The position numbers were made by a program, and so were the translations under genes. A DNA stretch of 64,000 nt from Parabacteroides faecis (GTDB taxonomy: Bacteria; Bacteroidota; Bacteroidia; Bacteroidales; Tannerellaceae): contig NZ_BMPB01000008.1 of NCBI RefSeq assembly GCF_014647375.1, positions 248,001 to 312,000 of the forward strand, read 5' to 3'. Position 1 is the stretch's first letter, and each line of letters opens with the position of its first letter. The notes beneath the pieces were generated by a model that was given only the letters and a program-made list of their open reading frames with translations, ran no database searches and was not told the DNA's origin. Below are positions 5,489-28,927 of the stretch, one piece after another.

Positions 5489-6709
5489 TTATATCGCCAA
5501 TTCCGACAAACAGCTATTAACTTTCTGCATATCCTTTAGAATATTCTGATCCAGCACCCGTGCATAGTGTTTCGTTACGCTGGTATCTGCATGGCCTAAC
5601 ATCTTAGCTACGTTTTCCATACTTACGCCATTCGCTAGGCATATAGAGGTGGCATAGGAGTGCCGGGCTGAATGTGTGCACAAATTTTTCTGTAATCCGC
5701 ATACATCTGCAATCTCTTTCAGGTAGCTGTTCATGCGTTGATTGCTCAATACTGGCAATAGTTTTCCGGTACACTCTGCCACATCCTTGTACTTGTCAAG
5801 AATAGAAGCTGCCACAGGTAACACAGGAATATTGCACATGATTTTTGTCTTTTGGCGGTTCTTCCTTATCCAAAGTTCCCCTTTGTTATCCCGTACCAAA
5901 TGTTCAGGTGATAAATCTTTTACATCGCTGAAAGCCAAGCCTGTAAAAATGCAAAAAACAAAAATATCCCGTACCTGCTCTACTCGCTTAATAGTAAACT
6001 CTTTGGCGAGAATGATTTTAATCTCGTCCATCGTCAGGAATTCAGGATCAGTTTCTTCTAGTTTAAAGCGATAGTAAGCGAATGGATCTTTTTTAATCCA
6101 ATCGTTTTCCAAAGCAATGCGGATAATTTTCTTCAGGTTCTTCAATCGGGTGATTGCGGAGTTCTGTGCACAGCCCTTTTCAATCTTTAAGAAAGCATCA
6201 AACTTAGAAATGAAATTCGCTTCCAAGTTATTTAGAGCAATATCTGAAAGCAGATATTCTTTTTTGATAAATTCCTCTAAATATCGGGTAGTGGTTTCAT
6301 ACCGCTGCACAGTCTTACTAACGAAGTCTTTGCCGATCAACCTACGGCTTTGCTCGTTATGTTCCCTGAATACCTGCAATAGTGTTTTGTTATCTTCTTC
6401 TACACCATAATATAACTTTCTCATAAGATCGACTGTGATAGTCTTGCCCGATGATTCTAGTTCCCTATAAATTTGGTGTATGCGTGAACGTGTGATTTCT
6501 AAGTAGTGGTTCAGTTCCACCGACATACGGTCTTTACCTTTTGAATTTTCTTTTGCCTGATTCCATAGGTTTACAGGACAGCTTCTTTTTACTAAAACAT
6601 CTACCATACAGCCGTTTACAGTAATTCTCATGCACACGGGTGCTTCTCCGTTCTTTAATAATCTGGCTTTCTTGATAAAGAATAGCACATTGAAGGTTTT
6701 TCTAGCCAT
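5489..6709 (-). CDS. tyrosine recombinase (CTnDOT-type integrase)
   Basis: 406 aa, a typical length for IntDOT-like integrases. An N-terminal arm-binding and SAM-like core-binding domain is followed by the catalytic domain. Catalytic residues visible are a lysine in the beta-hairpin (RQKTKI), H346 and R349 (HSARHSYAT), H373 (LGHAD) and the nucleophile Y382 (TKHYARV). The first catalytic arginine is replaced: the motif reads FTGLAFSDV, with alanine where phage integrases have arginine, as is known for the IntDOT group. It faces away from tRNA-Lys at the element end and should integrate and excise the element at the tRNA 3' end. Confidence 0.9.
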   Translation of the reverse strand: MARKTFNVLFFIKKARLLKNGEAPVCMRITVNGCMVDVLVKRSCPVNLWNQAKENSKGKDRMSVELNHYLEITRSRIHQIYRELESSGKTITVDLMRKLYYGVEEDNKTLLQVFREHNEQSRRLIGKDFVSKTVQRYETTTRYLEEFIKKEYLLSDIALNNLEANFISKFDAFLKIEKGCAQNSAITRLKNLKKIIRIALENDWIKKDPFAYYRFKLEETDPEFLTMDEIKIILAKEFTIKRVEQVRDIFVFCIFTGLAFSDVKDLSPEHLVRDNKGELWIRKNRQKTKIMCNIPVLPVAASILDKYKDVAECTGKLLPVLSNQRMNSYLKEIADVCGLQKNLCTHSARHSYATSICLANGVSMENVAKMLGHADTSVTKHYARVLDQNILKDMQKVNSCLSELAI

Positions 6710-10382: not shown

Positions 10383-12593
10383 TTATTTCTTATAAAACTT
10401 TCTGACTTCCGTTCCTTGTCCGGTTTGTACCATAAGAATATAATGTCCCGTTGGAATAGAAAGGTAAGTTGAATAAGCTGTTTGACTACCGATCGGATAT
10501 CTGCATACAGCCTGTCCATCATATCTGTAAACCATCAGGTTTGTCATTAATGCATTCGACTGCAAGGCAAGCAACCCGGATACAGGATCAAAAGTATATT
10601 CAAAACCAGTTGCCGGTTGTTCAATCGTTTCATTGGAAACGGTCAGAGAACCGTCCACCTTCAATGCAAACCAGCGCGTGCTTTCCTCAATATCGGTATA
10701 AAAAGGATACCACAGATCCCGTAAGCCCGACTGATAAGTAGCAACAACAACCAAAGTGTCACCAACAGTCCAGTCAAAACCACCCGTAAAGGAAACCTTC
10801 CGGCTTTCCCCTGCAGGTATATTCACCAGGTTATTTACTTCCCAGCTATATTCTTCGGTAGAAAGACCCGGCGCTGTGACCAGCAGACCGGCTGTTCCAT
10901 AATAATCCGCCTGCTGATTGTTATGGAAAGTGACCTCGAAGACTGCCGTATTATTATCCGCATCATAAGTGACCTTAACGGGATCGGCAGACAGTTTCCT
11001 TTCGGCTTTAGAAAGCGTAACGTTACCGTCCTTCACATCGACCACCACATAATCATACGGATGATTAGCCGTGCGGATCGGTTTCATCACAGACTCCCCG
11101 GCTTTGCAACCAACCACATAGATGTAATAAGTAGCCGTGCTGTCCGGCACATCGAAGGTAAAGGTATTGCCTTCGATAAGCTCTCCACGTTTGAAGTTAT
11201 CGATCAACTCCACGTTTGCCTCATAGTCTTCTCTCTGTACCTCGATTGCTTCGTCTTCCCTAAAAAGCTTGCTGAAAATGTAATAGTCGCCATCCGCACC
11301 GAAGTTAGACAAGGAAAAAGAAATCGGCAGATTATCGCCTAACTTAACCTGTCCGTTTCCTTCAATATCGATCGAACTGATCCCCAAAAGCGTTGCAGGC
11401 TCAGATGCCGCCGTCGGTTTCCGGATACCGGTGATTATCTGTTGATGCTCGTTCTGTGAATAAAAACCAATATTGATAGCACCTAACTCAAAATAACCGT
11501 CCCCGGCATATCCGGTTTTCAGATGGAAAAGATTATCCTTATTATATCCGTCGCAAACGAAAGACCAGCTATATCCCTGATTATTCTCGCCGCCCTCTCC
11601 CGAATAATAAACCGGACGCATAGCAGCCAGTTCAGTCTTCAACATAGTAGTCCACTCGTTTTCCGAGAAGAAAGCACGGTCATAAAGTTGCAGGTTCTTG
11701 TCGTACTGAAAATTCTCGACAAAGGCGTTCCATACATCTTCATTATCTGCTGTCGAACCATATTCATAATTGGTACGGGCAGCAATGCCACAATGAAAAA
11801 TCAACGTCGACACATCATCGATCTCACGATCGGAAGACTTTTCATTCAGTTCAACAGGCATTTCATCCCAATAGTACTTAGAACCCGTAAGAGTTCCCCC
11901 GAAACCATGGGAGCTGCCGGCATATTTATAGCTGATATGCCCTACTCCACCCGCCGGATATTTATGAAAAGACATGATCTGGGCCATTGCTACAGCAGCA
12001 GGACCGGCCTCACTCAGATAACCACCGATTTCAGGACAAGAGGCATTATAAGGATAACCTACCTCCCATTTGGCTTTGACCAGTGGGATCACTCTTTCCG
12101 GAAACTCAGAAGCATCCGTATCTGAACTACCGGCTTTCGTCCCTGCTGTTTGCGCAACAATTGCACCACTTCGCAAAGCCTTGACATAACGGGTGTACAT
12201 CATAAGAAAATTATTCATATTGCCGGACAAACCACCAGTCGGAAAAGAGCCGTTATCCGATATCCTCAAAAGTTGTTTCCCCTGGTCTTCACCGGAAACA
12301 ATTACAAATCCCCGATCGTCACCGACATTATAAATGTATAACAAAGCATCTTCGACAGCCGACGAACGTAATGAAGAAGCAGCCATAATAGCTTTCTCCG
12401 TTCCGATATATGCCAACTTGAAATCAGGAAAACCCTCGGATTTCAAACCCGAAGTATGCGCTTCTGAATAACGCTCCTGTGCAATCCGGAGCGATCCGGC
12501 CAAACCTATTGGATCTGCAGATAAAAGTTGTACGCCTAAGGCAAAGCAACCCAGCAATCCAAAACTCAACATGCGAAGTAAATGTTTCTTCAT
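10383..12593 (-). CDS. C10 (streptopain/PrtT-like) peptidase homologue lacking catalytic residues
   Basis: 736 aa from the ATG at 12593 (MKKHLLRMLSFGLLGCFALG, signal peptide); the frame is open further upstream but covers the promoter. The propeptide-like segment YNVGDDRGFVIVSGEDQG and the catalytic-domain landmarks YNASCPEIGG and AMAQIMSFHKYP identify family C10. The catalytic Cys position (GCVATAMAQ in active members) reads GPAAVAMAQ. The His position (GHAFVCDGY) reads YSWSFVCDGY. The NWGWGG motif reads KTGYAG. The C-terminus (LSIPTGHYILMVQTG, then EVRKFYKK) looks like a T9SS type A sorting domain. It is most likely a secreted pseudo-enzyme acting as a binder or inhibitor. Confidence 0.85.
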   Translation of the reverse strand: MKKHLLRMLSFGLLGCFALGVQLLSADPIGLAGSLRIAQERYSEAHTSGLKSEGFPDFKLAYIGTEKAIMAASSLRSSAVEDALLYIYNVGDDRGFVIVSGEDQGKQLLRISDNGSFPTGGLSGNMNNFLMMYTRYVKALRSGAIVAQTAGTKAGSSDTDASEFPERVIPLVKAKWEVGYPYNASCPEIGGYLSEAGPAAVAMAQIMSFHKYPAGGVGHISYKYAGSSHGFGGTLTGSKYYWDEMPVELNEKSSDREIDDVSTLIFHCGIAARTNYEYGSTADNEDVWNAFVENFQYDKNLQLYDRAFFSENEWTTMLKTELAAMRPVYYSGEGGENNQGYSWSFVCDGYNKDNLFHLKTGYAGDGYFELGAINIGFYSQNEHQQIITGIRKPTAASEPATLLGISSIDIEGNGQVKLGDNLPISFSLSNFGADGDYYIFSKLFREDEAIEVQREDYEANVELIDNFKRGELIEGNTFTFDVPDSTATYYIYVVGCKAGESVMKPIRTANHPYDYVVVDVKDGNVTLSKAERKLSADPVKVTYDADNNTAVFEVTFHNNQQADYYGTAGLLVTAPGLSTEEYSWEVNNLVNIPAGESRKVSFTGGFDWTVGDTLVVVATYQSGLRDLWYPFYTDIEESTRWFALKVDGSLTVSNETIEQPATGFEYTFDPVSGLLALQSNALMTNLMVYRYDGQAVCRYPIGSQTAYSTYLSIPTGHYILMVQTGQGTEVRKFYKK

Positions 12594-12699: not shown

Positions 12700-14292
12700 A
12701 TGAGACTGTACAGATCATTATATCTTCTTCTGCTACTATTGGTTATGCATATAACGGGGCAGGCGCAATTGCAAAAGGTTATCAAGGATATTTTTTCGGC
12801 TGATGATATAACGACGGAGCATGCCGACTCTGACTCTATCGATTCGTCCGGGTTACAAAAATACGATGCAACTTTCAAGCTGAAAAGCGGACAGATACAG
12901 AAACTCGACTCGCTACGGAAAGAGTCGGTCGCCAAAGAGAAAGAGATGAAATATCACGACAGCTGGTGGCAGACGGGGAAACATATCCTTTATTTCGTAT
13001 TGGTATTGCTGGGGCAATTCCTGCTGTTCCGCCTATCTTCCTGGCTTTACAAGAAAGTGAAAAACCGTATCCAGCAGTTGAAAGACACCAAGCTGAAACC
13101 GATCTCCATACAGAATTATGAGATACTGGATACGCAGAAACAGGTCTCCCTGTTGATCTTTCTGGCGAATATCCTCCGCTATCTCCTATTGTTCATCCTG
13201 TTGGTTTTAACGATACCGATCCTTTTCTCCATCTTTCCGCAGACGAAGGAACTGGCGTATAAGATCGCCTATTATATCTGGAATCCCGTAAAAGATATCC
13301 TGGAAGGCATCCTCGGCTATATCCCTAATCTTTTCACGATCATCGTGATCTGCCTGGTTATAAAATACGTCATTAAGGGCATCCGGTATCTTGCCACGGA
13401 GATAGATGCGGGAAGATTGAAGATTAATGGTTTTTATTCGGACTGGGCGATGCCGACCTATCATATTATCCGGTTCCTGTTGTATGCTTTTATGATTGCG
13501 ATGATCTATCCTTATCTGCCGGGAGCCAATTCGGGCGTCTTTCAGGGAGTATCTGTTTTCGTCGGGTTGATCGTCTCGCTCGGTTCCAGCACGGTGATCG
13601 GGAATATTATTGCCGGGTTCGTAATTACCTATATGCGCGCCTTCAAGCAAGGCGACCGGATCAAATTGAACGATACAGTAGGTAACGTAATCGAAAAGAC
13701 CGCCTTCGTCACCCGTCTGCGCACCATCAAGAATGAGATCGTGACGATACCGAACTCCTTCATCATGTCATCACAAACAGTCAACTATACATCATCGGCA
13801 CGCACTTACGGGCTGATCATCCACTCGGAGGTAACGATCGGCTATGATACCCCCTGGCGCAAAGTGCATCAACTTCTGATAGATGCCGCCAAAACAACAC
13901 CCGGAGTGATGCCTGAACCGGCTCCCTTCGTTCTCGAAACGGCCCTGAGCGACTTCTATCCTGTCTACCAGATCAACGCATATATCCAGGAGGCGAACAA
14001 TATGACGACCGTCTACCTTTATCTGGAAGACGATTGTTGGTGCGCTTATGAGCGTTCGGCATACTATCTGGTAGCAAAGGATTTTCCGGTGACCCTCGCC
14101 AAAGAGGTTGTTTACGACGGTTGTGAAATCATCATGAAAGCCTCTTTCAACGTAGACCACATGCGTCTCCCTTTGATTCCCTCCGCCGTCTTGATAACTG
14201 TTGCCGACGACCGTCTCCTTTTCCAACTCGACAAACCCATCGACGGCTTCGTCAAATGGAAAAGGGCACAGATAGGTAGTCAGCCTGCTTAA
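12700..14292 (+). CDS. MscS-family mechanosensitive channel with exchanged C-terminus
   Basis: 530 aa. Signal-like N-terminus (LLLLLLVMHITGQAQ), several membrane helices (residues ~95-260), pore helix and MscS beta domain at about 288-375 (GSSTVIGNIIAGFVITYMR, then TIPNSFIMSSQTVNY). Residues 1-438 are a normal MscS protein up to YQINAYIQEANNMTTVY. The family continues with a helix such as SALHQNIQDYF and ends IEIMSPHY..., but here the last ~92 residues (LYLEDDCWCAYERSAYYL...) instead match the small hypothetical protein at 15077-15445. The genuine MscS tail lies on the other strand at 14289-14427. See the 14010-14427 entry. Confidence 0.85.
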   Translation: MRLYRSLYLLLLLLVMHITGQAQLQKVIKDIFSADDITTEHADSDSIDSSGLQKYDATFKLKSGQIQKLDSLRKESVAKEKEMKYHDSWWQTGKHILYFVLVLLGQFLLFRLSSWLYKKVKNRIQQLKDTKLKPISIQNYEILDTQKQVSLLIFLANILRYLLLFILLVLTIPILFSIFPQTKELAYKIAYYIWNPVKDILEGILGYIPNLFTIIVICLVIKYVIKGIRYLATEIDAGRLKINGFYSDWAMPTYHIIRFLLYAFMIAMIYPYLPGANSGVFQGVSVFVGLIVSLGSSTVIGNIIAGFVITYMRAFKQGDRIKLNDTVGNVIEKTAFVTRLRTIKNEIVTIPNSFIMSSQTVNYTSSARTYGLIIHSEVTIGYDTPWRKVHQLLIDAAKTTPGVMPEPAPFVLETALSDFYPVYQINAYIQEANNMTTVYLYLEDDCWCAYERSAYYLVAKDFPVTLAKEVVYDGCEIIMKASFNVDHMRLPLIPSAVLITVADDRLLFQLDKPIDGFVKWKRAQIGSQPA

Positions 14293-14427
14293 TTCGTTTT
14301 CGTCTCTTCTTTCTTGGGGATCGTAGAAGCATTGCCATTCCGGAACGCCGTGTAATGGGGCGACATGATCTCTACGCCTGCCTTATCGAAATAGTCCTGG
14401 ATATTCTGGTGAAGGGCCGAATAGACG
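14010..14427. other. inverted DNA segment exchanging two gene tails
   Basis: CGTCTA at 14010-14015 and its complement at 14422-14427 bound the segment. Reversing it in silico gives two normal-looking genes. On the plus strand MscS becomes ...ANNMTTVYSALHQNIQDYF... ending KKEETKTN. On the minus strand the small gene becomes MTQIIDIDLIYFNEVDNDKYVYLYLEDDCW..., colinear along its whole length with its paralogue at 15077-15445. Both frames hold across the joints. The stop codons of the two ORFs share the palindrome TTAA at 14289-14292. Homology at the breakpoints is only about 6 bp, and the window carries no recombinase next to it. Confidence 0.8.
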
Positions 14428-14486
14428 TATTTGTCGTTATCTACTTCGTTAAAATAAATCAAGTCTATGTCTATGATCTGTGTCAT
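14289..14486 (-). pseudogene. chimeric ORF: start of a small hypothetical gene fused to the MscS tail
   Basis: 65 codons. The first ~21 (MTQIIDIDLIYFNEVDNDKY) are colinear with the start of the hypothetical protein at 15077-15445. The rest (YSALHQNIQDYFDKAGVEIMS, then PHYTAFRNGNASTIP) is the conserved C-terminal helix and end of an MscS protein. As read it is probably non-functional; after inversion of 14010-14427 it would encode an intact protein of about 112 aa. The invertible promoter at 14681-14985 lies about 200 bp upstream and points away from it. Confidence 0.75.
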
Positions 14487-14680
14487 AAGTTGGTTGTTTT
14501 TCGAGAGATTGTTTGTGAAATTCGTACTATGTTCGTTTTTAGTAGAAAAACAGTACTATTTACCCTGATTTTATCACTTTTATCCGGTAATCGTTTTCCT
14601 GCTGCAAGAGCCATTGTATTCGTTAGGCTACGCAGAGGCTTGGTTTGGACGATTGCCAGGGGATAAAAGTGCTAGAATCA

Positions 14681-14985
14681 TAGTTCACGTAGAACTATGT
14701 TACGATAAGAGGACAGACTTTTTAAGATGATAAACAAGAGATTTTGTCGCATGCGACGTCGTATTTCGCAAAAATGAGGCAAAGTGTACATAAAAGCAGA
14801 ACGACCCCGGCAAAATTTTCAGATACTGAATGTGTACTGTACCTTATAAGGCTGGTGAAAAAAAGGTACAATCAGCGTCAGAAATGATTCTGGACAGGTC
14901 GTTATAAAATAACGCCTGAGGATCAAATCTTTTAAAATAAATATATATCTTTGAACACGGAAAAAAAATAGTTCTACGTGAACTA
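14681..14985. promoter_or_regulatory. invertible promoter A (OFF toward the leftward gene)
   Basis: Exact 18-bp inverted repeats, TAGTTCACGTAGAACTAT at 14681-14698 and its complement at 14968-14985, bound 269 bp. Each repeat has inner dyad symmetry (ATAGTTC-5-GAACTAT) with an asymmetric ACGTA centre, as expected for a site-specific recombinase. Inside, TATCTTTG (14946-14953) is a -7 box reading rightward. No leftward -7 box was found. In this orientation it drives no sense gene; if flipped it would read toward 14486 with a leader of about 215 bases. The 200 bp between 14487 and 14680 hold no other feature I can support. Confidence 0.8.
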
Positions 14986-15076
14986 AGTCCATTTTAAACA
15001 ATACTTTTCGTTCTCTTTTTACCCTTACTAAAAGAATACGTTCCTACAATTCCCCACGTCAAGTACGGGAGACAAA

Positions 15077-15445
15077 TTATGCAGGCATCCCGCTTAGTTG
15101 TTCACCCTTCCATTCAACGAAGCCGGTAATGGGTTTGTCAAGTTGAAAAAGCAGGCGGTCGTCGGCAACAGAACGGAGTACGGCGGAACGGCAGAGAGGG
15201 AGGCGCATTTGGTCGATGTTGAAGGAGGCCTTCATCAAAATTACTTCATAACCATCATGAACGACCTCGATATCCAGGCTCACCAGGAAATCCATCACGG
15301 CCAGGTAATAGGCCGAACGCTCGTATGCACACCAGGTATCGCCTTCCAGATAAAGGTGGACGTACCGATTGTTATCTACTTCGTTGAGTAAGATTAATTC
15401 TACGTCTGATGCTCGTTTCATAATGCTGAATATTTGTTGGTTCAT
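15077..15445 (-). CDS. hypothetical protein, paralogue of the rearranged gene at 14.0-14.5 kb
   Basis: 122 aa from 15445, or ~114 if the second ATG (MKRASDVELILLNEVDN) is used; the latter aligns with the start of the chimeric gene. Soluble, no signal peptide, no motif I recognise. Conserved features between the two copies are NEVDN, HLYLEGDTWCAYERSAYYL, MKASFN and SVADDRLLFQLDKPI. It is the last gene of the fimbrial transcription unit, 7 bp after the DUF3575 gene, so a role linked to the fimbriae or their switching is possible but unproven. Confidence 0.7.
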   Translation of the reverse strand: MNQQIFSIMKRASDVELILLNEVDNNRYVHLYLEGDTWCAYERSAYYLAVMDFLVSLDIEVVHDGYEVILMKASFNIDQMRLPLCRSAVLRSVADDRLLFQLDKPITGFVEWKGEQLSGMPA

Positions 15446-15452
15446 GATCGTC

Positions 15453-16112
15453 TTATTTTATAAAATAGATGAATGACAAGGCGGCTTTTGTGGGGCCGAA
15501 GTAATTTTTGGAGACAGACAGCGGAGTGCCGCAGGAAGCACAAGGATACTTGTCGTAATCGAGATGAAGCCAGCCGAGGCCGACAGTCGCTTCCATGCTC
15601 CAATGGGAAGACAGGTGCCACTGGTAACCGTAAGACAGGCCAACACTGTAAAGTTTGCCCTGATAACGGTGCGACTGCATGTTGTCGCTCAGGAAGCGGA
15701 TGCCGCCGATATTGTAATCGGCATACTGGGTGTTGAGACCGAAGAAATGACCGGCGAACTTTTCACGAAGCCAGTAACGGGCTTCAGGCTGGACCATCCA
15801 GTGTTTGAGACGCATGCCGTTGCCGAACTTCCAGGGGTTGTAGTTGGCGGAGATATCGAGAGTCCATTGCGGAGCGAGAGCCACTTCGATGCCGAGGTTG
15901 AGAGAGGTCGTAACATCGTAAAGGACATTCGTTTTTACCGCGAACTGAAGGGCGGGAACAACCGAAGATCCCTCACCGGAAACGTTCAAAGACTGTTGAC
16001 CGGCAATCGCCACTGTCTGACGGGCAGTAACGTCCGAAGGTTGCGGTTGCTGGCCGGAGACGGTCGGAATAATTAAAAGGAGCAGAAACAGGATAAATAT
16101 ATTTTTCTTCAT
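15453..16112 (-). CDS. DUF3575 outer-membrane protein of the fimbrial locus
   Basis: 219 aa. Signal peptide (KKNIFILFLLLLIIPTVSGQ), then an outer-membrane barrel-like body with the DUF3575 landmarks LQFAVKTNVLYDVTTSLNLG, NPWKFGNGMRLKHWMVQPEA and a late GYQWHLSSHWSMEATVGLG. DUF3575 proteins accompany Mfa/Fim-type fimbriae; the exact role is not established. A paralogue lies at 46042-46602 in the second fimbrial operon. Confidence 0.85.
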   Translation of the reverse strand: MKKNIFILFLLLLIIPTVSGQQPQPSDVTARQTVAIAGQQSLNVSGEGSSVVPALQFAVKTNVLYDVTTSLNLGIEVALAPQWTLDISANYNPWKFGNGMRLKHWMVQPEARYWLREKFAGHFFGLNTQYADYNIGGIRFLSDNMQSHRYQGKLYSVGLSYGYQWHLSSHWSMEATVGLGWLHLDYDKYPCASCGTPLSVSKNYFGPTKAALSFIYFIK

Positions 16113-16159
16113 CGTTTATTGTTTTATATTTTGTTTGTCGATATTCCTTGTTTGTCTGT

Positions 16160-16480
16160 TTATTCTTCGTTTGCGGGCTGCCCGTTACTATCGTCGGGAT
16201 CGGCTGCATTGTTGAGATATTCAAGGAGAAATTTACCCGGTTTGAATTTGACACTGTTGCGGGCGGCGATCATAAAAGGGGTGTTGCATCTGGGATTTCT
16301 GCCCGGACGACCCGTCTGCTTCCAAAGAGAGAAAGTACCGAAGCCCATTAACATCACGCTGTCTTCCTGCAATAAGGCCTTCCCTACTTCCTCTTCCCAT
16401 ATTTCCAGACAGGCAATAATCTCTTTCCTCTTCAAATGCGACCTGTCACGGATTATTTCTATTAACTCTGCACGATTCAT
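16160..16480 (-). CDS. HU-family DNA-binding protein
   Basis: 106 aa. HU/IHF fold: N-terminal helices (MNRAELIEIIRDRSHLKRKE), LMGFGTFSLWKQTGRPGRNP with the DNA-intercalating arm (RNPRCNTPFMIAARNSVKFKPG). It ends with a short acidic tail (ADPDDSNGQPANEE). It lies between the putative tip adhesin and DUF3575 genes in the fimbrial unit. It is probably an architectural protein, perhaps assisting the nearby inversion sites. Confidence 0.9.
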   Translation of the reverse strand: MNRAELIEIIRDRSHLKRKEIIACLEIWEEEVGKALLQEDSVMLMGFGTFSLWKQTGRPGRNPRCNTPFMIAARNSVKFKPGKFLLEYLNNAADPDDSNGQPANEE

Positions 16481-16492
16481 AAAGTATGCTGT

Positions 16493-19330
16493 TTATTTTT
16501 TAATATCCCTTACACAACGATAGCTTGCCTTAGAACCTGCTCTCCACATCGACATACTTCCTGCAATATCTGCGGAATACCCCAAATAGACCCTATCTGA
16601 ACTATTGTTATTCGTATTATTAGGAGAATATTTATTCTTTGTACAACTAAAGATAGTAGCAGCCCGGTCTATCGCTTCATTCTTTCTGTTAGAGGTAAGA
16701 ATAGCCAATTCACGTTGGTTCGGCAATCGCCAGCCCTCTCCTTTCGATGCACACGGATTTATTAAACTTATTTCCGCTGCAGTCAGGCTCGTTTTATTAA
16801 TATCCCCCACTTCAATACCATCAGATACGCGTGCTTCTTCATCGAAGTTAGTATGTCCGAAGGTCAAAGCATGAGAAACGCTTGCCCGTTTTGCTGTCGG
16901 ATTTAAATTATCAAAATAAAGATATTGGTAAGTGTATCCATCCGATAATGTCGTTTCACTATGAGTTGCCAAAGCTGCAGTCCCCCCTGTTACACTTCTC
17001 AAATTACGGATACAACGATAACGTTTAACAGTCCCTTTATATCCTCCAGCGCTATTAGCAAAAGCAGTCGAACCACCCTCACTAGCCAAAAAGACTCTCT
17101 GATCGACTTGCGTATCTGCCATACCAGCATATATATGAGCAGTACTACTTGCATAAATATCTCCATGATCGAATTTATTTCTATTAACCAGGGTTACTTC
17201 TTCTGGTAAAACGTCATCCCCAATGAGATACTCGGTGTACTGATTGATCGCAGGAAGATACCAACGTAATTCATCAGCATCAATTTGTCCATTACCATTC
17301 AAATCCCGATTTTTATTCAAACAGCCAAAATCTGCAAAATAAACCTTTTTATTTCCGTCAGGCCAAAGAGTATTCGTAGCAAAATTCAGATAACTAGCCC
17401 ATGAATACGCTTTTTGCTGACCATAAAATCCAGGAAAACTTTTTGATAAATTTCCCCACGTATTATAACGCCCTTGTGACAGACTGTTCGCCCATCCAAC
17501 TCTTTCTCCCAGATTAGTAGCAATCTTCATATTGGGATTTTCCTGTGTCCATTCCGTACCCCAACCATTCACGTCATTATTTTCCATTCTATCCATATCA
17601 TACATCGTACAGATCGAACGCTGTGAGAATGTATAGGCTGCCGTACTGATAGAACTATTGCTTGATGTCTCATTATTCTTTATATAATTGGTACAAATCT
17701 GAAGTATGCGGGGTTGTTGGTTGACGAAATCACTTAACTTCACTGCCCCATTATAATTACCATTACCATCGCCATAAAAATACTCATCGATGAAACAAGT
17801 ATAATATACAATATCATTATCATCTGTCAAATCGTCACAAGCGTTATATAAATCAGTCTTAAACCCATCAGCATTCAAAAGACTTTTATCATTTGCCGAA
17901 TATTTATATTTCATAAAATCAGTAGCAACATTTCCTTCTGTATTCCTTCTATAAGTAACCCAATTGACATCATCATCACCGGGATGGAAACTGTTTTTAG
18001 GTGTAGAAGCATAGATCAGAAACTTTTCTTTAAATCGTTCCAAAGTACAACCTGCAGCAGTTCCGTCCGGAGAATATTTCTCTCTCAATTCCCGAATCGT
18101 CTTTTTTGAGAAAGAAATGATCGTAGTTTCAAAATGCGCATCAAAAATTATAGCATTATCAGTTGACACGAGCATATCCCCATCACCTGACCAGTTTTCG
18201 CTATCTGTTTGAACTTCGACAATCAGGTCGTCTACACCTCTGACATTGACCGTATAAACGTAACGGTTGTTACGAAGGATTTTGTAATTGTTATAGTCCG
18301 TTGCACCTCCGGTACCCCAATCTCCCAGATGTATATAATAGGTAACATAAGCGGTAACTTCTCTACCGGAGATGTCACCATTTACTGATTGCTCAGTTGT
18401 TCCCGAAAAAGTACCTTTCAATATTACATAAGTCGAATTTTCCGGTGCATTATCAAAGTTCTCAGAGCTATCAGACATCTTTTCCCGTTCATCACGGGTA
18501 GAAGCACTACCTTTTGCTTCCTTCTTGCTTTCCATCATCAGGAAAGAGAACGTTTTTTTACCATCTTCCTCCACGAAGACAGAACTTTTATTTGTGTTAT
18601 CATATGACATTCCGCTACACTCACCATTCTGCTCCAAAACGAACGACCGTTGAGGGATATTTTTCACCTGCCAGCTATCGACAATAAAAGTAGCCCCCGG
18701 AGTATTGCTATAAACTTTGAACTTTACAGACGACATGATCCTTTTCAAATCGATAAATCCGGAATTTCCCGATCGATCGACCACCCCATTTTCCGTAATG
18801 CAGCAGGCTCCTTTTTCGGTACTCTCTGTATTTCCAATAAAATAACCGCTCATCAGAAACTGTCCGTCCAGTACGGATGTGTTGTTTTCCTCCAGTTCGA
18901 TACACAACTCATTCAAGCCTTCCAACGTATTCACATTTTCCAACTGGTATGTCAGATCACCAAACACGGAACTCTTATAATTTGCCACCGCATACACATA
19001 TCTATCTCCGGTAGTTGTTTTCAACGTGACAGCGCCCATAGTCAATGCGTCGGCATCAAAGAAAAATGTATTGTCTACTTTCACCATACTGCCGCCATCT
19101 CTTTTAAAGATCAGTACAGCTAACGATCTGACCTGATCGTTCTCACTGATATCCGAAACTCTTGTCTCGATCTTCACCGGATCGGAGGTTCCGAATGTCA
19201 GCGTTGTAGTAACGGGCAGACCTTCTTCTACGATAATTTTTTTCGGTCCGATCAACGTCTCGTCCGTACAGGAGACGAATAACAGGAAGCCTGCCAACAG
19301 GTTGCATATATTTTTTATTGAATGTATCAT
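16493..19330 (-). CDS. large DUF4906-type fimbrial lipoprotein, putative tip adhesin
   Basis: 945 aa. Lipoprotein signal with lipobox (LLAGFLLFVSC). The N-terminal ~400 residues follow the fimbrillin plan: Ig-like strands, VRSLAVLIFKRDGG, and ANYKSS in the middle. A DUF4906-like region follows. The C-terminal ~250 residues include DENGNGQ-type text (LNKNRDLNGNGQIDADELRWYL) and a FISUMP-like end (GWRLPNQRELAIL, YRCVRDIKK). Large two-part proteins of this kind are usually fimbrial tip or adhesin subunits. It lies 12 bp before the HU gene, in the P2 unit. Confidence 0.75.
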   Translation of the reverse strand: MIHSIKNICNLLAGFLLFVSCTDETLIGPKKIIVEEGLPVTTTLTFGTSDPVKIETRVSDISENDQVRSLAVLIFKRDGGSMVKVDNTFFFDADALTMGAVTLKTTTGDRYVYAVANYKSSVFGDLTYQLENVNTLEGLNELCIELEENNTSVLDGQFLMSGYFIGNTESTEKGACCITENGVVDRSGNSGFIDLKRIMSSVKFKVYSNTPGATFIVDSWQVKNIPQRSFVLEQNGECSGMSYDNTNKSSVFVEEDGKKTFSFLMMESKKEAKGSASTRDEREKMSDSSENFDNAPENSTYVILKGTFSGTTEQSVNGDISGREVTAYVTYYIHLGDWGTGGATDYNNYKILRNNRYVYTVNVRGVDDLIVEVQTDSENWSGDGDMLVSTDNAIIFDAHFETTIISFSKKTIRELREKYSPDGTAAGCTLERFKEKFLIYASTPKNSFHPGDDDVNWVTYRRNTEGNVATDFMKYKYSANDKSLLNADGFKTDLYNACDDLTDDNDIVYYTCFIDEYFYGDGNGNYNGAVKLSDFVNQQPRILQICTNYIKNNETSSNSSISTAAYTFSQRSICTMYDMDRMENNDVNGWGTEWTQENPNMKIATNLGERVGWANSLSQGRYNTWGNLSKSFPGFYGQQKAYSWASYLNFATNTLWPDGNKKVYFADFGCLNKNRDLNGNGQIDADELRWYLPAINQYTEYLIGDDVLPEEVTLVNRNKFDHGDIYASSTAHIYAGMADTQVDQRVFLASEGGSTAFANSAGGYKGTVKRYRCIRNLRSVTGGTAALATHSETTLSDGYTYQYLYFDNLNPTAKRASVSHALTFGHTNFDEEARVSDGIEVGDINKTSLTAAEISLINPCASKGEGWRLPNQRELAILTSNRKNEAIDRAATIFSCTKNKYSPNNTNNNSSDRVYLGYSADIAGSMSMWRAGSKASYRCVRDIKK

Positions 19331-19374
19331 AGTTTTTTCTTTTTATCGGATTATTGATGTAATACGAGAAAATA

Positions 19375-20331
19375 TTAATTGAAAGTGATTTCGTCCTGTG
19401 TGATAGTGTTGATCGCATGCAGTTGGTAAGACAATTCTACTTCGTACTTCACGCTTATCTTTGCCTCGACCTCGATGTTGTAAGATACACCGTTTTCAAG
19501 AACCGTCACCGGTTGTCCGTTGCTCAGGAACGGTACAGAGATAGTCTTTTCCACTTCCTTCGGTGTGCTACCGTCTCCTTTATCAATGGTGATTACAACA
19601 TTTACATCGATGTTTGCCGCTTCCGTTTTGGTAGTGCAATACCAGAATGAAGAAACACCACCATCATAACGAGCTGCGCCATCCACATGAGCATTAATTT
19701 CCGGTATGATTTTAGAGTCACGGGCAATCTTTGCGTCGTAGCGGGTTGCTACCATCGTTACAACAGTATTCGAACCTGCGCCTTCCGCTTTAGCTGACAG
19801 ATTTACTACGACACGGGCAGTCAGTTGTTTCAGTTCCACGGTAACAGTACTTGCACTTCCAGATAAAGTAACGCCTTTGGAAATTCCAACTTTCACCAAA
19901 CCAGGAACACAACCTACTGTCTGATCTACAAATTCGTTGTATGTATAAAGATTGTCGAACAATGTCCAATCGTTATTATGCTGATCGAGATTAGCGATCA
20001 CGACTACGTCTGCTTTTCCTTCTTTTGTGCTGATATTGTCGATCGTTACAGTTTCATCCGTAAAAGAAGATGCTTCTTTTGTGAAACCGATGCGTTCGCC
20101 GGATTTGGAGTCGAAAACAGCTATCATATAACTGTCGATAGCAAATTCGTTGACATCGTTGTCAGCCTTTGTATTGATTCCGTTCGATACCATACGTACA
20201 GATAAAGATGTTTCACTGTTACTGTTTACACTTGCGTCTGTCATATTGTTGTCGATACCTTCTATTTCAGAAGAACAAGCTGCGAATGACAGCACCATTA
20301 AAATTGCCAGAATGATATTTTTTGTGTTCAT
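19375..20331 (-). CDS. fimbrillin-family lipoprotein
   Basis: 318 aa. Lipobox LSFAAC. The order of strands (SLSVRMVSNGINTKADND, IDSYMIAVFDSKSGERIGF, ADVVVIANLD, LKQLTARVVVNLSAKAEG, GVSYNIEVEAKISVKYEVEL) is that of Mfa1/FimA-like major or shaft subunits. It is the first gene of the second transcription unit (P2), with its own promoter at 20379-20386. Confidence 0.8.
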   Translation of the reverse strand: MNTKNIILAILMVLSFAACSSEIEGIDNNMTDASVNSNSETSLSVRMVSNGINTKADNDVNEFAIDSYMIAVFDSKSGERIGFTKEASSFTDETVTIDNISTKEGKADVVVIANLDQHNNDWTLFDNLYTYNEFVDQTVGCVPGLVKVGISKGVTLSGSASTVTVELKQLTARVVVNLSAKAEGAGSNTVVTMVATRYDAKIARDSKIIPEINAHVDGAARYDGGVSSFWYCTTKTEAANIDVNVVITIDKGDGSTPKEVEKTISVPFLSNGQPVTVLENGVSYNIEVEAKISVKYEVELSYQLHAINTITQDEITFN

Positions 20332-20378
20332 AGGAATGTATATTTGCGATTTAAAATTTTACCCTTACGATTACAATG

Positions 20379-20446
20379 CAAATGTACAGCCTTGCCCGAT
20401 AGCCGAAGTGCGGCAAATATTTCAGGCTGGAGAGGTATTTTTTAAA
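20379..20446 (-). promoter_or_regulatory. fimbrial promoter P2 with two direct-repeat operators
   Basis: Minus-strand -7 box TACATTTG (20379-20386). No TTG -33 is present. Instead GGCAAATATTTC begins at 20412 and GGTATTTTTTAAA at 20434, 22 bp apart, the first one 26 bp beyond the -7 box. The same elements with the same distances occur at promoter P1 (28810-28877), which points to a shared activator, probably the kinase/AraC hybrid at 28928-30895. Confidence 0.65.
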
Positions 20447-20450
20447 GCCG

Positions 20451-20564
20451 TGAAATTGATAAATATACCCTATGAAAACGATAAATACACCTTGTAAAAA
20501 AGAGCTTTCCGGACTCCGAAAAACAATAGAAAAAATATATTCTCATGAAATTGATAAAAATACC
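20451..20564 (+). repeat. plus-oriented copies of the fimbrial operator motif
   Basis: TGAAATTGATAAATATACC (20451-20469) and TGAAATTGATAAAAATACC (20546-20564) differ at one base. GATAAATACACC (20480-20491) starts 22 bp after GATAAATATACC (20458-20469). The 12-mer GATAAATATACC is exactly the complement of 28843-28854 in promoter P1. Further degenerate copies lie at about 20612-20630. This fills the 315-bp gap upstream of the fimbrillin gene. Confidence 0.65.
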
Positions 20565-20646
20565 GCCGACTGATAATTTCCGATGTTTGCAACGAACGCC
20601 ACCTTTCGGTCGGTATTTATTAAAAGTACCCCACAGGATTGAAGGA

Positions 20647-21426
20647 TTATTCGATCTCCGGGCGGTCGTCACCACCTCCTCCGCTCGGTGCATCAGGTTC
20701 AATAGGGGCAGTAGGGTCACCCGAAACCGGAGGTACCGATTGTTTCAATACCTGCTGTTTGTAATGTACGATTTCCTGATTTTGCACCGCGATCAATGCT
20801 TTATAATCGGTATCCCCTTCGATAACGGCATACGCATTGATCAGTTTGACTACTTCCAGATAAACTTCATCCGTTACTTTACGTGCTTCCTTCAACGTAT
20901 ACTCCGGATTTGACAGCCGTTCATCGTTGCGGCTGGCAGTATAGGAACGTACGTAGCTGTTCGATTGTTTCAACTGGTTGATAAACGAACCGAGTGCCAG
21001 TTTTTGCACCTGGTCGGCATATTTATTTTCCATATCGTCGATAAAATTGATCAGGAGACCGGTTTCTTTGTCCAGTTGTGTCTTCACATTGATATTGTAG
21101 TCCTTGATTATCTGATTGATTTCGCGTGCGGCATTCTGAATCTCCGGATCAGAGACGGTGAGCTGTGCCTTCACGATACTTTTTATGCCGACATAGAGAG
21201 AGTCGCGGCGACGGTCGTACTCGACGATCTTGTCGGTATTGAGACTTTTACGGGAGATAGTCAATGCTTCGTCTTCGTGGTCGATGGCCTGTTTGTAACG
21301 GGTCAATACTTCGGCGACCTTATTTTTTACTTTCGTATCCGCTTCAATGCGGTTATAAAAGTCGGTGTTATAAAGAAAATGAGCCCCGTTGTTCATACGG
21401 GGCAAGCTGATTGTGCTTATTTCCAT
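20647..21426 (-). CDS. DUF6261-family protein with Gly-rich DRPEIE tail
   Basis: 259 aa, no signal peptide, mostly helical (MEISTISLPRMNNGAHFLYN at the start, then long alpha segments). The C-terminus is a Pro/Gly linker ending SGGGGDDRPEIE. The HU-like protein at 58968-59423 ends with an almost identical tail (GGGSDRPEIE) although the rest is unrelated. It lies between the two fimbrial transcription units, after a terminator-like hairpin (21562-21609). It may be an insertion into the locus; function unknown. Confidence 0.75.
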   Translation of the reverse strand: MEISTISLPRMNNGAHFLYNTDFYNRIEADTKVKNKVAEVLTRYKQAIDHEDEALTISRKSLNTDKIVEYDRRRDSLYVGIKSIVKAQLTVSDPEIQNAAREINQIIKDYNINVKTQLDKETGLLINFIDDMENKYADQVQKLALGSFINQLKQSNSYVRSYTASRNDERLSNPEYTLKEARKVTDEVYLEVVKLINAYAVIEGDTDYKALIAVQNQEIVHYKQQVLKQSVPPVSGDPTAPIEPDAPSGGGGDDRPEIE

Positions 21427-21561
21427 GATCTTCTGTTTTTATATGAATATTCTGTTTGTTTTATGTTTCTGATATTGCCCGGCAAGTGTGGAGACGGAAA
21501 CGTGCGTCAAACATCCCGCGCCATTGTGCTGAACGAAAAAACGATTGTTTTTTAATCCAAA

Positions 21562-21609
21562 CCGCCGGAAAGGAGGCCCTGACGGACGTTACTACCTCCC
21601 AACCGGCGG
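21562..21609 (-). terminator. hairpin ending the first fimbrial transcription unit
   Basis: On the minus strand CCGCCGG...GGGAGG pairs with CCTCC...CCGGCGG. The stem is GC-rich with an unpaired centre and is followed by TTTGGATTAAAAAACA. The tail is not a perfect U-run, so it may be a partial terminator. It lies 75 bp after the stop of the gene ending at 21684. Confidence 0.6.
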
Positions 21610-21683
21610 AACGGACATGGCTTGGCTCGTTTCCGGCACCAAACCTCCGAGGTGAAGAAATCGACGTGTGTCAATCTGCATTC

Positions 21684-22874
21684 TCAATTTACCTCTGTCT
21701 TCTGTGTTTCGACTTCCCAGTCGTCAGCACTAATCGTAGCCAAGGCTTTGGCATTCTCTCTGTATGTTTCATCACTGGAACCTCGTCCGGCAATCGTCGC
21801 ACTGATACGGATCACGTAGTTGCGAAGTACGCCGGAAAGGTTTTTACCTTGTGTATCTGTCATATTTTTAAGCCGAACAAAGAAATAACGATCCGACAAG
21901 ATCGGCGTGTCTTCGTCCTTATGGAGGATATCGCCTTTCAGGATGATCGTTGTAGGATTCACGCCTGTATTTTCGGTGACGTAGCATTGTATCTTAGGGG
22001 CATCGACCGGCGGATAACTGCTGTTTTCCGTCAGTATCGGGGCATCGGCTTCGGTAACAGATAACAAGTCGAGTGTGGATAAATATCCCTGGTCGTTTGT
22101 AGCGCGTCCATTCTTATAATCGCCTTCCTTCCATTCCACTTTATGCAGTGCGTCATCCACCAGGGCGGCGGCACTTTTCGCATCGACCACATAGATCCGT
22201 TTCAAACGAAAGCGGGCACCTTCGGTTTTCAGGTCGGCAGCATCCGCTTCGCGCCATTCCAGGTCGATATTTTCGATATCGATGCGGCTGGCGGTGCGAT
22301 AGACCGACACAGGATTGGTACTGTAAAAGGCATCGGCCGGAACATCTTTGAATGTTTCTGTCGACCCGATGTAGTTGTTGCCCGGTTTCAGTTTGGTGAG
22401 ATCTATAAAGTGGCTACACATCGGCTGGTTATCCACCCGAATATCTTCGAGCTTAATATACTGTTCCCTCAACTCTTTTATGTTTGTAAAGTTGGGCTTG
22501 CCGACATTGACGAGCACCGCATATATATACTTCGTATCGCTCTTGGCTGCAATACGTATCGTGTCGGGTGTAGCACCGCTGACATTCGCATAATCCACGT
22601 ATGCCGAAGCCAGCAGCGTGCTATCCTCCCGGAACACAGCGGCAAATATGTTGTTGATCTTGTCTTCGCCTTTCCTCATCAGATGATCTTCACCCGTTGC
22701 GCCTTTTGTCGTGCTTTTCGCGGCACTTTTCGTCAATATCGAGCCGGGGGCAACCGACAAGGTCAGTGTCGCATCCTGCGGAACGATCACTTCGGGCTCC
22801 TCCTCGCCGGGAGCGGAACAGGCGGCCAGCAATGCCGCCGCCAGTAGAAAGAATATACTTTTGATCGGTTTCAT
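21684..22874 (-). CDS. fimbrillin-like lipoprotein (minor subunit)
   Basis: 396 aa. Lipobox LLAAC. Strand order DATLTLSVAPGS, INNIFAAVFREDSTLLA, KYIYAVLVNVGK and YVIRISATIAGRGSS near the end are the repeated features of this locus. The segment TASRIDIENIDLEW matches TARVEMRNIE and TAARVYLNRLYL of its neighbours, showing common descent. Probably a minor pilus subunit. It is the last gene of the P1 unit. Confidence 0.78.
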   Translation of the reverse strand: MKPIKSIFFLLAAALLAACSAPGEEEPEVIVPQDATLTLSVAPGSILTKSAAKSTTKGATGEDHLMRKGEDKINNIFAAVFREDSTLLASAYVDYANVSGATPDTIRIAAKSDTKYIYAVLVNVGKPNFTNIKELREQYIKLEDIRVDNQPMCSHFIDLTKLKPGNNYIGSTETFKDVPADAFYSTNPVSVYRTASRIDIENIDLEWREADAADLKTEGARFRLKRIYVVDAKSAAALVDDALHKVEWKEGDYKNGRATNDQGYLSTLDLLSVTEADAPILTENSSYPPVDAPKIQCYVTENTGVNPTTIILKGDILHKDEDTPILSDRYFFVRLKNMTDTQGKNLSGVLRNYVIRISATIAGRGSSDETYRENAKALATISADDWEVETQKTEVN

Positions 22875-22885
22875 ATCTTTTTCTT

Positions 22886-24007
22886 TTATTTTATTTCTTC
22901 GGTTTGATGTACGGAGCCCCAGCCTGCCACTTCGACACGGACGTCGAGCGAGGCTTCGTCACTCTCGAAGCTGGTGCCTGAGAAGGTGACGTAGAGGCGG
23001 TAGATATAGTTTCGTTTCACATAATTGTGATCGTAGCCGTTCTGCACGCCGTTGCGGTTGACAGGCGACGTAAAGATGCGGGTCTGGTTCGTCTCCACCA
23101 AGGTAGCTTTGACGATCAATAGCGTCGGGGACGCATCGGACGAACTGTTCTCGAAAACGTAGTTGCTGTAAGCAGGCGACAACCAGGGGCTGTTGTCGCT
23201 GACCGTCCGGTTGAAGTCCGCCCCGAGATAATCTACCGGATGCGAACCCTCGGCAAAGGAGGAAGCCGCTTCGGAAGCACCTGCACCATAGACCAGGGCA
23301 GCATCGGCGGCTTCGGCTTCGACATCTCCCCAATCGGCTTCGCTGAAATAACGGGAGTTGCTTTTGACGTTGGCAAGCGTGATATGGTCGATACGCACGG
23401 TCTTGCCTTCGAGAGGCGTACCGGCGAAATTAGTTTCGATGTTGCGCATTTCCACACGGGCGGCAATGCGGGTGAGTTGCAAAGGGCTGGAGATATTATC
23501 CACGTTCGTACCTGAGGTGTAGCCGATCAGGTTGTCCTCCCCTTTCTCCAACGCCTGTGTCGAGCGGATCACCTGCGTACTGAAAGTGAGCGAGCTTTGC
23601 GACTGCGTGGCAAGCCCCGCCAGACGCGACTGCAATCCGGCGTAACTGCCTACCGTCCCGTCGAGGTCTGCAGGCACGTTCGCCAGTACGACAAGCAGGA
23701 TGCGTTCGGCACTGGTTTCTATATCGGTTATGGCGAGCATCGAAAGATCAGGATCGTCGTTACGCCGGTAGCCGATCAGGGTGGAACCGTCGCTGTTGAA
23801 GACGTAGGCGGACAGGTCGTGTATGTCGCTTTCACCGGGCAGCGCGTTCGGATCGTCGGTCGCCTTGCTTCCCGCCTGGCTGCGCAATTGCAGCCCGACG
23901 GAAAGACGCGCCTGTTCAAGCGGCGGAGTTACTGGTCCGTCGTCTTTTGCACAGGAGGCCAACAAAGTGGATACAGATACGAATAAAAATATTTTATGTA
24001 GGATCAT
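22886..24007 (-). CDS. fimbrillin-like lipoprotein (minor subunit)
   Basis: 373 aa. Lipobox TLLASC. Fimbrillin plan: LSVGLQLRSQAGSKATDD, IHDLSAYVFNSDGSTLIGY, LVVLANVPADLDG, RIAARVEMRNIETNF, HNYVKRNYIYRLYVTFSG near the C-terminus. Gap to the next gene is 11 bp, so they are co-transcribed. Higher GC than the flanking subunit at 24942-26117. Confidence 0.78.
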   Translation of the reverse strand: MILHKIFLFVSVSTLLASCAKDDGPVTPPLEQARLSVGLQLRSQAGSKATDDPNALPGESDIHDLSAYVFNSDGSTLIGYRRNDDPDLSMLAITDIETSAERILLVVLANVPADLDGTVGSYAGLQSRLAGLATQSQSSLTFSTQVIRSTQALEKGEDNLIGYTSGTNVDNISSPLQLTRIAARVEMRNIETNFAGTPLEGKTVRIDHITLANVKSNSRYFSEADWGDVEAEAADAALVYGAGASEAASSFAEGSHPVDYLGADFNRTVSDNSPWLSPAYSNYVFENSSSDASPTLLIVKATLVETNQTRIFTSPVNRNGVQNGYDHNYVKRNYIYRLYVTFSGTSFESDEASLDVRVEVAGWGSVHQTEEIK

Positions 24008-24034
24008 TGTCTGTTCGATTTAATGGGGATTGAT

Positions 24035-24940
24035 TTAAAATTCGATATGATCGTCTATGGTGCCCCAGGGACGGACGGTCTGCCGGACGGAAAGCAAGGC
24101 TCCGTTTTCGCCGAAGCGCAGGACAACATACAGGATACCGGCTTCGGGAGCGACCAGCGGATCACCGTCGTCATCGTGGGTGGCGATACCGAGCGTCTGA
24201 TTTTCGGCGGTCAGTTCGACGTTGATATTTTCACCGGCACACATGCGGTAGTTGGGCGCGAAATATTCGTTGTCGGCATCCCATCCGGCATCGGGATGGT
24301 AATAGACGCTATCGCCGGTCAGGTTACCCCGGTAGTCGAAGGCGTTCAACGTGCGGTTGACGTAGTAGTTGCAGTCGGCTTCACCGGGGACGGCGGAGGG
24401 GACGTTTTTTTGCAGGGCGTATTTGATATCCTGCGTCAGGATATTGACCTGCGAGAGTTTGGGGCGTACCACGATAGTATCGTCCGCCGCCAGGCCGCCC
24501 CCGGCTTTCGTCTGCACGAGGCGGCTGCCGTAAAAAAGGTCGTCGGGCTTTTGAGCCAGACCATCACGGCTTTTAAGTATCACCCTTAGTTCTTCTATCA
24601 ACTCGCTTTCCGTTACAGTCTGGTTGCCTCCGGCAACGTTCCCCCAGGCTATCACATGCAGATTACGGTCTTCCGGATAATTCAGTCTTATTTCCTGATG
24701 GTCGTGTATCTGGGCTTCCGTCATACGGACGGTTTCCAGATACTCGTACCCTTCATCGAAAACATAGAGGGAGGCATCGTTAAGCGCGCTTGCGGTGACG
24801 TCGTCGCCTTTGGCGTTCTCCGCTTTCAGTGTCAGCTTGTAGCAGGGGGCCATATCTTCGTGGATACAACCGGTCAGGGTAAGGGTGGCGGCACATACGG
24901 CGGCAACCAGCCATCTATGGATATGATCGATCTGTTTCAT
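24035..24940 (-). CDS. FimB/Mfa2-family fimbrial anchor lipoprotein
   Basis: 301 aa. Lipobox TLTGC followed by IHEDMAPCYKLTLKAEN. The motifs ASLYVFDEGYEYLETVRM, NLHVIAWGN and GDPLVAPEAGILYVVLRFG are typical of the FimB/Mfa2 (DUF5119-like) family, whose members cap and anchor the pilus in the outer membrane. It is separated from the gene upstream by one base. The identification is more specific than for the neighbouring subunits. Confidence 0.85.
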   Translation of the reverse strand: MKQIDHIHRWLVAAVCAATLTLTGCIHEDMAPCYKLTLKAENAKGDDVTASALNDASLYVFDEGYEYLETVRMTEAQIHDHQEIRLNYPEDRNLHVIAWGNVAGGNQTVTESELIEELRVILKSRDGLAQKPDDLFYGSRLVQTKAGGGLAADDTIVVRPKLSQVNILTQDIKYALQKNVPSAVPGEADCNYYVNRTLNAFDYRGNLTGDSVYYHPDAGWDADNEYFAPNYRMCAGENINVELTAENQTLGIATHDDDGDPLVAPEAGILYVVLRFGENGALLSVRQTVRPWGTIDDHIEF

Positions 24941-24941
24941 A

Positions 24942-26117
24942 TTATAATTCGAAATCTTCGTCTATGGTTATTTTGTCTAAATCCTTACCGTCCCAGCTTT
25001 GGATCTTGAGGATAGCGGATAGGTCGGTATTCTCCTGATTGACTCCCGGGGCGTATGAACCTTTACCGGTGATGTGTGCAGATAGCTTGTAAACGGTATT
25101 CGGCTTTACGCCTTTTTCCAGTTTGACGCGGTAATAGCGATCTGAAAGGACAGTCTTATTGTTCACGCTGTCATAAAGATCTCCTGTTATATAAAGGATT
25201 ACGGGAGCAGCGTCGTCTTTAGTCTGAGAATTGGTGGTGACATAGAAATTTGCATGTTTTAAATCAATCACATTTTCATTCTCACCGAAGTAACTTGTCC
25301 CCATTCCTTCATCCATAAAATCGTAAAAGGGTATTACCGACTTATTTACATTTCCTTTGGCAATATCTCCTCCTTCTACTATCAACCCGAGGTCTTCTAT
25401 ACCACAGTAATATTTATCTTCGACACATTCTATCGGATGCGTTGCAACTCCTTCCGGCAGCCAGGTCGATGTATCGAACAGGTAAGTCCGCTGACGCACA
25501 TTTGCAACGAATACACGTTTTATTTTGAATTTAAGACCTGAAATAGATTTAAGATCGGGATCCTTCCAGTTGAAGGAAAGTTCACTTAGTTCGATTCTGG
25601 ATACAACACGTTTTACCTTTGCCGTAATGGTCGTCTCTTTGTTATCGATCGTTATATCTTCGTCTACGTAACTCATAGGAAACCCAAATTCCGACGCCAA
25701 AATCATATCGTCAGGCTGAAAGAAATCAGCAGATATATAATCATAATAGTCTGTTGCTTTAAAAGAAGATATTTCGACCGTATTCGCCATCACAAGCATT
25801 CTATATGTTCCGGTTTTCAGGTTGATAGGTTCCGATGTGTATTCATATTTATCAATATAACCCTTAAATTCAGTCAAACAATATCCATGCCCGACTACTT
25901 CATTATTCTGCTTATCGATAAAAACAATTGTCATATTCCGGATCACATTTTCCATGGAGGATAAGAATGCTTTAGTTGCGGCAATCCCATCCACCGACAC
26001 CGAGACTGTGACAGATGCGTCCTCTCCACCCAGGGTCGGGGATGGTTCTTCTTCGTGTGAGCAGGCTGCTAGCAACAGGCTAGATAAGAGCGTGATATAT
26101 AATTTAAAATGTTTCAT
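24942..26117 (-). CDS. fimbrillin-like lipoprotein (minor subunit)
   Basis: 391 aa. Lipobox LLLAAC followed by SHEEEPSPTLGGED. SVTVSVSVDGIAATKAF, IRNMTIVFIDKQNN, YRMLVMANTVEI, KRVVSRIELSELSFNW and PNTVYKLSAHITGKGSY are the fimbrillin core elements. More AT-rich than its neighbours, hinting at a different origin or a variable subunit. Confidence 0.78.
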   Translation of the reverse strand: MKHFKLYITLLSSLLLAACSHEEEPSPTLGGEDASVTVSVSVDGIAATKAFLSSMENVIRNMTIVFIDKQNNEVVGHGYCLTEFKGYIDKYEYTSEPINLKTGTYRMLVMANTVEISSFKATDYYDYISADFFQPDDMILASEFGFPMSYVDEDITIDNKETTITAKVKRVVSRIELSELSFNWKDPDLKSISGLKFKIKRVFVANVRQRTYLFDTSTWLPEGVATHPIECVEDKYYCGIEDLGLIVEGGDIAKGNVNKSVIPFYDFMDEGMGTSYFGENENVIDLKHANFYVTTNSQTKDDAAPVILYITGDLYDSVNNKTVLSDRYYRVKLEKGVKPNTVYKLSAHITGKGSYAPGVNQENTDLSAILKIQSWDGKDLDKITIDEDFEL

Positions 26118-26150
26118 GTCTGTATTGTATTATCTAACTTATTTTCGGAA

Positions 26151-27299: not shown

Positions 27300-27349
27300 A
27301 TATTAATTGTTTTATTATCGTCTTAACCGGAAAGTTTTTTTGGTAATAA

Positions 27350-27380
27350 GATCGACCAGGGAAGTCCTCCCCGATCGATC
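27350..27380 (-). promoter_or_regulatory. strong intra-operon hairpin after the first fimbrillin gene
   Basis: On the minus strand GATCGATCGGGGA pairs with TCCCTGGTCGATC (13 pairs, two of them G-T) around a GGACT loop. No U-run follows (TTATTACCAAAAAAA), so it is more likely an attenuator or an RNA-stability and processing element than a full terminator. Such an arrangement would give excess of the first subunit. Confidence 0.6.
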
Positions 27381-27424
27381 CGTCTAACATCTATTAGATT
27401 TATTGAGCGTAAGTGATATGATTG

Positions 27425-28877: not shown

Positions 28878-28927
28878 TGATAAAAATTCCTCTGTTTATC
28901 TGCACCTTTTTTAATGAATACCATGTT

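Follow-up and report, generated by a model that had tools for sequence, protein, structure and literature searches.

Coding inversions that provide alternative in-frame C-termini are known from the intragenic or gene-intersecting invertons (Chanin et al. 2024, as cited in PMC11868660; PMC11892184). The inverted repeats of invertons are given as 10-40 nt long (PMC11892184) or as typically 10-20 nt with mismatches allowed (PMC5903667), and 952 of 1837 invertons in one survey intersect a gene, those of the Bacteroidota being mainly intergenic (PMC11892184). A study of yeast (PMC8604942) describes template switching between short imperfect inverted repeats, which homogenises the arms and inverts the spacer, also in coding DNA; its search was set to arms of 7 bp or more and to spacers no longer than 70 bp, and most of the 7-bp cases did not exceed random simulations. 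The locus described here, in a window of 64,000 nucleotides of Parabacteroides faecis (the whole stretch of DNA analysed, from contig NZ_BMPB01000008.1), shares with the intragenic invertons the coding inversion and the alternative in-frame C-termini, but it has a repeat of 6 bp, no match to the one recombinase site tested, and one orientation in the assembly. With the template-switch events (PMC8604942 and work cited there) it shares short end repeats, an inverted spacer, equalised arms and a location in coding DNA, although in those events few codons change, whereas here two genes exchange tails and one arm base is equalised; the arms of 6 bp and the spacer of 406 bp also count against the fit. 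No title or opening of an abstract, among the matches listed in a literature search, mentions this locus or an MscS inversion.

The rearranged segment is 418 bp long, with CGTCTA at its left end and TAGACG at its right end, and lies across the 3' ends of an MscS gene and a small gene (Table 1). The MscS part of the plus-strand ORF runs to a Val438-Tyr439 junction, beyond which the reading frame continues into the displaced tail of the small gene, whose protein identity is 98% to the small gene of a related genome (G038) and 71% to the nearby paralogue. Reversing the segment in a script restores a 482-aa MscS protein and a 113-aa small protein, both open, the restored small protein being 67% identical to the paralogue over their alignment. 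The preliminary description had proposed such an exchange of tails, had pointed to the paralogue as confirmation of the repaired small protein, and had noted that the two stop codons share TTAA; its coordinates and geometry prove correct, and so does the TTAA shared by the stops.

Table 1. Features of the inverted segment and its surroundings (positions within the window).
Feature	Position	Strand	Description
Inverted 418-bp segment	14010..14427		Opposite-strand BLAST alignment of G038 and P. gordonii (G009), and of P. goldsteinii (G013) for the MscS-tail part; breaks at the repeats
Left breakpoint repeat CGTCTA	14010..14015	+	CATCTA at the MscS junction of G038, G013 and G009
Right breakpoint repeat, CGTCTA on the minus strand	14422..14427	-	Small-gene junction; CGTCTA in G038, CGTTTA in G009
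Chimeric MscS ORF	12700..14292	+	530 aa; MscS residues 1-439, then 91 aa of small-protein tail
Chimeric short ORF	14289..14486	-	65 aa; 22 aa of small-protein head, then the last 43 aa of native MscS
Displaced small-gene tail, now the end of the MscS ORF	14017..14292	+	91 codons and stop
TTAA common to the overlapping stop codons of both ORFs	14289..14292		From the sequence
Intact paralogue of the small protein	15077..15445	-	122 aa; adjoins DUF3575, HU and FimA-like genes
Inverton site TAGTTC-ACGTA-GAACTA, left member	14681..14697	+	Separate from the 418-bp inversion
Inverton site TAGTTC-TACGT-GAACTA, right member	14969..14985	-	Inverted orientation

A search of 39 genomes of the genus, the genome under study (G000) included, gave some match to the locus in 13. 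Besides G000 itself, G038, P. goldsteinii (G013) and P. gordonii (G009) match the entire MscS part with DNA identities of 78-97%, and the other matching genomes have partial matches only, mostly at 68-74%. All three of these relatives have the native MscS tail; the complete small gene lies convergent with the intact MscS gene in G038 and P. gordonii, and is absent at this locus in P. goldsteinii. In the alignment with G038 the changes of strand coincide exactly with the repeats (query 1-1316, 1311-1726 and 1723-2289). Because the relatives are unflipped and the alignments change strand at these repeats, the inversion is more than a chance reading, and the arrangement in the window is derived relative to the three other genomes, the native orientation being known from other species with one genome per species compared.

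Wider sampling gives the same picture. Of 139 MscS loci found, the best 80 were taken, among them the P. goldsteinii and P. gordonii loci L034 and L035; a motif test on the best-matching ORF per locus shows the native tail at 76 of them, and the foreign tail is at none. The four loci missing the motif are one in which the ORF ends early (L068), two with divergent native-type tails in which NIQD is still present (L102 and L111), and one at a contig end (L113). That the foreign tail is a known MscS tail was rejected on the same count of zero in these 80, and locus L076, a candidate carrier from its match to residues 34-530, has a native tail. The locus is single in the assembly, where no second copy in the other orientation was found, and a search for the junction in viral contigs gave no matches. 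When the 398,732 bases of contig 8 of G000 were compared with 400,000 bases of G038, segment 14010-14427 was the sole micro-inversion candidate; long matches (at least 300 bp, >85%) covered 42,863 bases, too few for a rate. In the long matches passing this >85% filter, some blocks are 85% identical and others up to 99%, a hint that parts of the region have recently been exchanged.

The breakpoint repeat is confined to 6 bp, with the 30 bases on either side matching at 20 of 60 positions where chance gives about 15. The end pairs are CGTCTA/CGTCTA in the window, CATCTA/CGTCTA in G038 and CATCTA/CGTTTA in P. gordonii, such that the ends are identical here and one base apart in G038, and the repeat, being imperfect in both relatives that carry the whole locus, is not conserved among them. 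The difference from G038 falls at base 14011, which is G in the window and A in three of three relatives (ATC to GTC, Ile to Val). Since the changes unique to the window over the MscS alignment number 16, or about 1% per site, an unrelated substitution at this base is possible but would not be the first guess; the argument from homogenised arms was made after seeing the data and concerns one base. Inverted repeats of 6 bp that pair the two genes number 142 in G038, and for 81 of these the codon phases are equal, so that the 6-bp repeat alone is at chance level and the in-frame swap is unremarkable. Longer inverted repeats, 16 of 8 bp and three of 9 bp, also exist between the genes in G038, and the event thus did not use the longest repeat. 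Both fusions are in frame together in these convergent genes because the codon phases of the breakpoints agree.

The genome has a large inverton-site family of its own. The motif AGTTC-N5-GAACTA has 85 strand-wise matches in G000 (1 for the backward control), corresponding to 54 distinct places by manual count of the list, symmetric sites counting on both strands; three relatives have 48-53 matches each, with backward controls of 0-2 per genome. As read from the site list, G000 has 17 pairs of inverted sites with a common core, spaced by 142-593 bp, and the pairs seem to have their own 5-bp cores. Four matches are found in the window, compared with 0.08 expected, and one pair (14681-14985) starts about 250 bp past the inverted segment. 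A TAnnTTTG motif at 14946, which we take to be the Bacteroidales -7 box, points in the plus direction, away from the minus-strand small gene, and as judged from the sequence that gene might be OFF as sequenced; the element is in the same orientation in G038. A second inverton-like pair (31094-31110 and 31380-31396), with one mismatch per site, lies on the other side of the minus-strand fimbrial locus and has a TAnnTTTG motif at 31357 within it, also pointing in the plus direction. In this window, then, Bacteroidales invertible promoters (14681-14985 and 31094-31396) accompany the inverted segment, one pair near it, but these elements are intergenic with 17-bp two-armed sites and a promoter-like motif, and the ends of the 418-bp segment do not match them: compared with AGTTC-N5-GAACT, the one site family tested, both ends agree at 5 of 10 arm bases, a level usual for stretches of the window picked at random.

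An imperfect palindrome at 14566-14680 lies in a 181-nt stretch with good folding as DNA (z -4.2). Of six genomes searched, G000 and G038 alone have the palindrome, and a search of 13900-15100 with Rfam gave no matches. Similarity to G038 stops at 14988, 3 bp after the inverton repeat; the fimbrial locus at 15000-32700 is missing at this place in G038, where the DnaB-like gene (32753-34282 in the window) comes within about 1.6 kb of the small gene. On the other side, the gene at 10383-12593, peptidase-like by reading of its sequence, survives in G038 as no more than two remnants, of about 55 bp, in the space separating its neighbours.

The small protein belongs to a family of 113-126 aa with a WCAYERSAYYL motif in the six members read. 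Two members had no matches in Pfam or NCBIfam; in PHROGs one of two had none and the other a single match (E 0.22), and the best match among solved structures had E 0.059. Of the 39 genomes of the genus 14 have relatives at E of 0.001 or less, as have 20 of the 124 genomes of the family; at E <1e-15 the numbers are 11 and 16. Neighbourhoods were examined at the 15 of 32 fetched loci with strong full-length matches. Eleven of the 15, genome G004 included, adjoin a homologue of a G004 protein of 463 aa, which resembles the window protein at 45018-46028 (presumably DUF3868-like), three adjoin DUF3575 or HU homologues, and one (G038) adjoins none of the proteins tested. Members sit mostly next to genes of fimbrial type, and the small gene is probably the last gene of fimbrial loci.

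In the chimeric MscS protein the beta domain is intact, the 530-aa ORF matching MS_channel_2nd (PF00924) over positions 1-67 of 68, but the C-terminal domain MS_channel_3rd (PF21082), complete in the intact G038 orthologue (profile 5-88 of 88, 50.9 bits), is incomplete (profile 4-70 of 88, 28.7 bits; both Pfam). Residues 205-461 of an intact orthologue correspond to residues 25-272 of E. coli MscS (2vv5), which would place the junction near E. coli residue 249, assuming the offset seen where the match ends. Relative to other MscS-family channels the C-terminal domain is thus cut near this estimated position and followed by an unrelated tail. Deletion of residues 266-286 from E. coli MscS makes recovery from inactivation defective and protection against osmotic downshock partial, the channel still protecting when overexpressed (PMC4440785). 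By analogy, the larger loss and foreign tail here are likely to be worse than that deletion, and the inversion likely destroys or impairs this MscS, along with this copy of the small protein. Five PF00924 genes are present in each of the four genomes searched (its own, G038, G009 and G013), and the four other MscS-family genes and the intact small-gene paralogue could cushion the loss.

We interpret the locus as a single and probably recent 418-bp micro-inversion in this lineage, with a template switch as the likeliest route and with impairment of this MscS as its likely consequence, and assign this reading a probability of roughly 0.77. The exchange would have taken place between two near-identical 6-bp inverted repeats inside two convergent genes with overlapping stop codons, the replicating polymerase jumping to the other strand at one arm, copying the spacer backwards and then jumping back, which would leave the spacer inverted and one arm copied into the other; the repeats would by chance have been in the same codon phase, leaving both fusions open. 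A precise inversion of the spacer between short inverted repeats is present here, and the arms are more alike than in the ancestor, by the single A to G change at 14011, which could instead be an ordinary earlier substitution. Given the lack of any stop or frameshift, the event is probably recent. Against this reading it can be said that both frames are open and the moved pieces little decayed, a picture that a very young event, a reversible switch and useful fusions would each give. The nonsynonymous to synonymous changes unique to the window (MscS head 3:10, MscS tail 2:1, small-gene head 1:2, small-gene tail 0:3) or to G038 (1:8, 0:0, 1:0 and 2:1 in the same order) are not numerous enough to reveal either relaxed or maintained selection. 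Homologous recombination of the small gene with its paralogue was considered and rejected, as the 73-74% inverted similarity (arms I1 and I2) covers the displaced tail and not the breakpoint pair, and in the reversed arrangement the two small genes share orientation. A one-time rearrangement, listed in the preliminary description as an alternative, is the account that fits best, with an arrangement derived relative to three relatives and an unconserved repeat of 6 bp.

The same description had suggested a switch, in which a recombinase would reversibly flip 14010-14427, alternating the MscS C-terminus and toggling the small fimbria-associated protein. Its underlying inversion and tail exchange are borne out by the orthologues of the three relatives, whereas the switch itself we consider unsupported and very unlikely: the repeat is below the published inverton lengths and is not conserved in G038 or P. 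gordonii, the flanks are unrelated and lack the genome's inverton site, the fusion is without the end of a conserved C-terminal domain, and its tail occurs at none of the 80 MscS loci. These outweigh what speaks for reversibility, namely the two open in-frame fusions, breakpoint repeats that are identical here and not in the two relatives, as repeated strand exchange would make them, the abundance of invertible-element sites in the genome, the commonness of gene-intersecting invertons, and a tyrosine recombinase gene at 5489-6709, 7.3 kb from the segment near a tRNA-Lys and with no observed tie to the CGTCTA ends. The site family, with one pair so close to the segment, could also be taken to implicate a resident site-specific recombinase in a one-time off-target flip in place of a replication error, and a G at each end could result if strands were exchanged over a mismatched core and the product then replicated; the random-like match of those ends to the site makes this very unlikely, and such a recombinase error would be a less likely route than a template switch. 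An artefact of assembly or library, with the cells carrying the native orientation, would agree with the 33-contig draft state of the assembly and with the native MscS end in three orthologues, but the junctions at the two ends are exact and reciprocal, an assembler is not misled by a repeat as short as 6 bp, and a simple mis-join of native sequence would not produce the G at 14011 unless the strain already had it, and we regard this explanation as very unlikely.

The locus illustrates how a single small inversion can yield a pair of in-frame fusion proteins, since where convergent genes have overlapping stops an inversion is tolerated whenever its breakpoints share codon phase. A coding inversion found in a single assembly does not on its own amount to a phase switch, and comparison with relatives, the length of the repeat and the genome's own inverton site help to separate an accident from a switch. 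If the segment were reversible, inverton crossover sites would extend to lengths shorter than those usual for the repeats; as it stands, this is a real inversion of an ordinary kind, with more the look of a chance accident than of a working switch.
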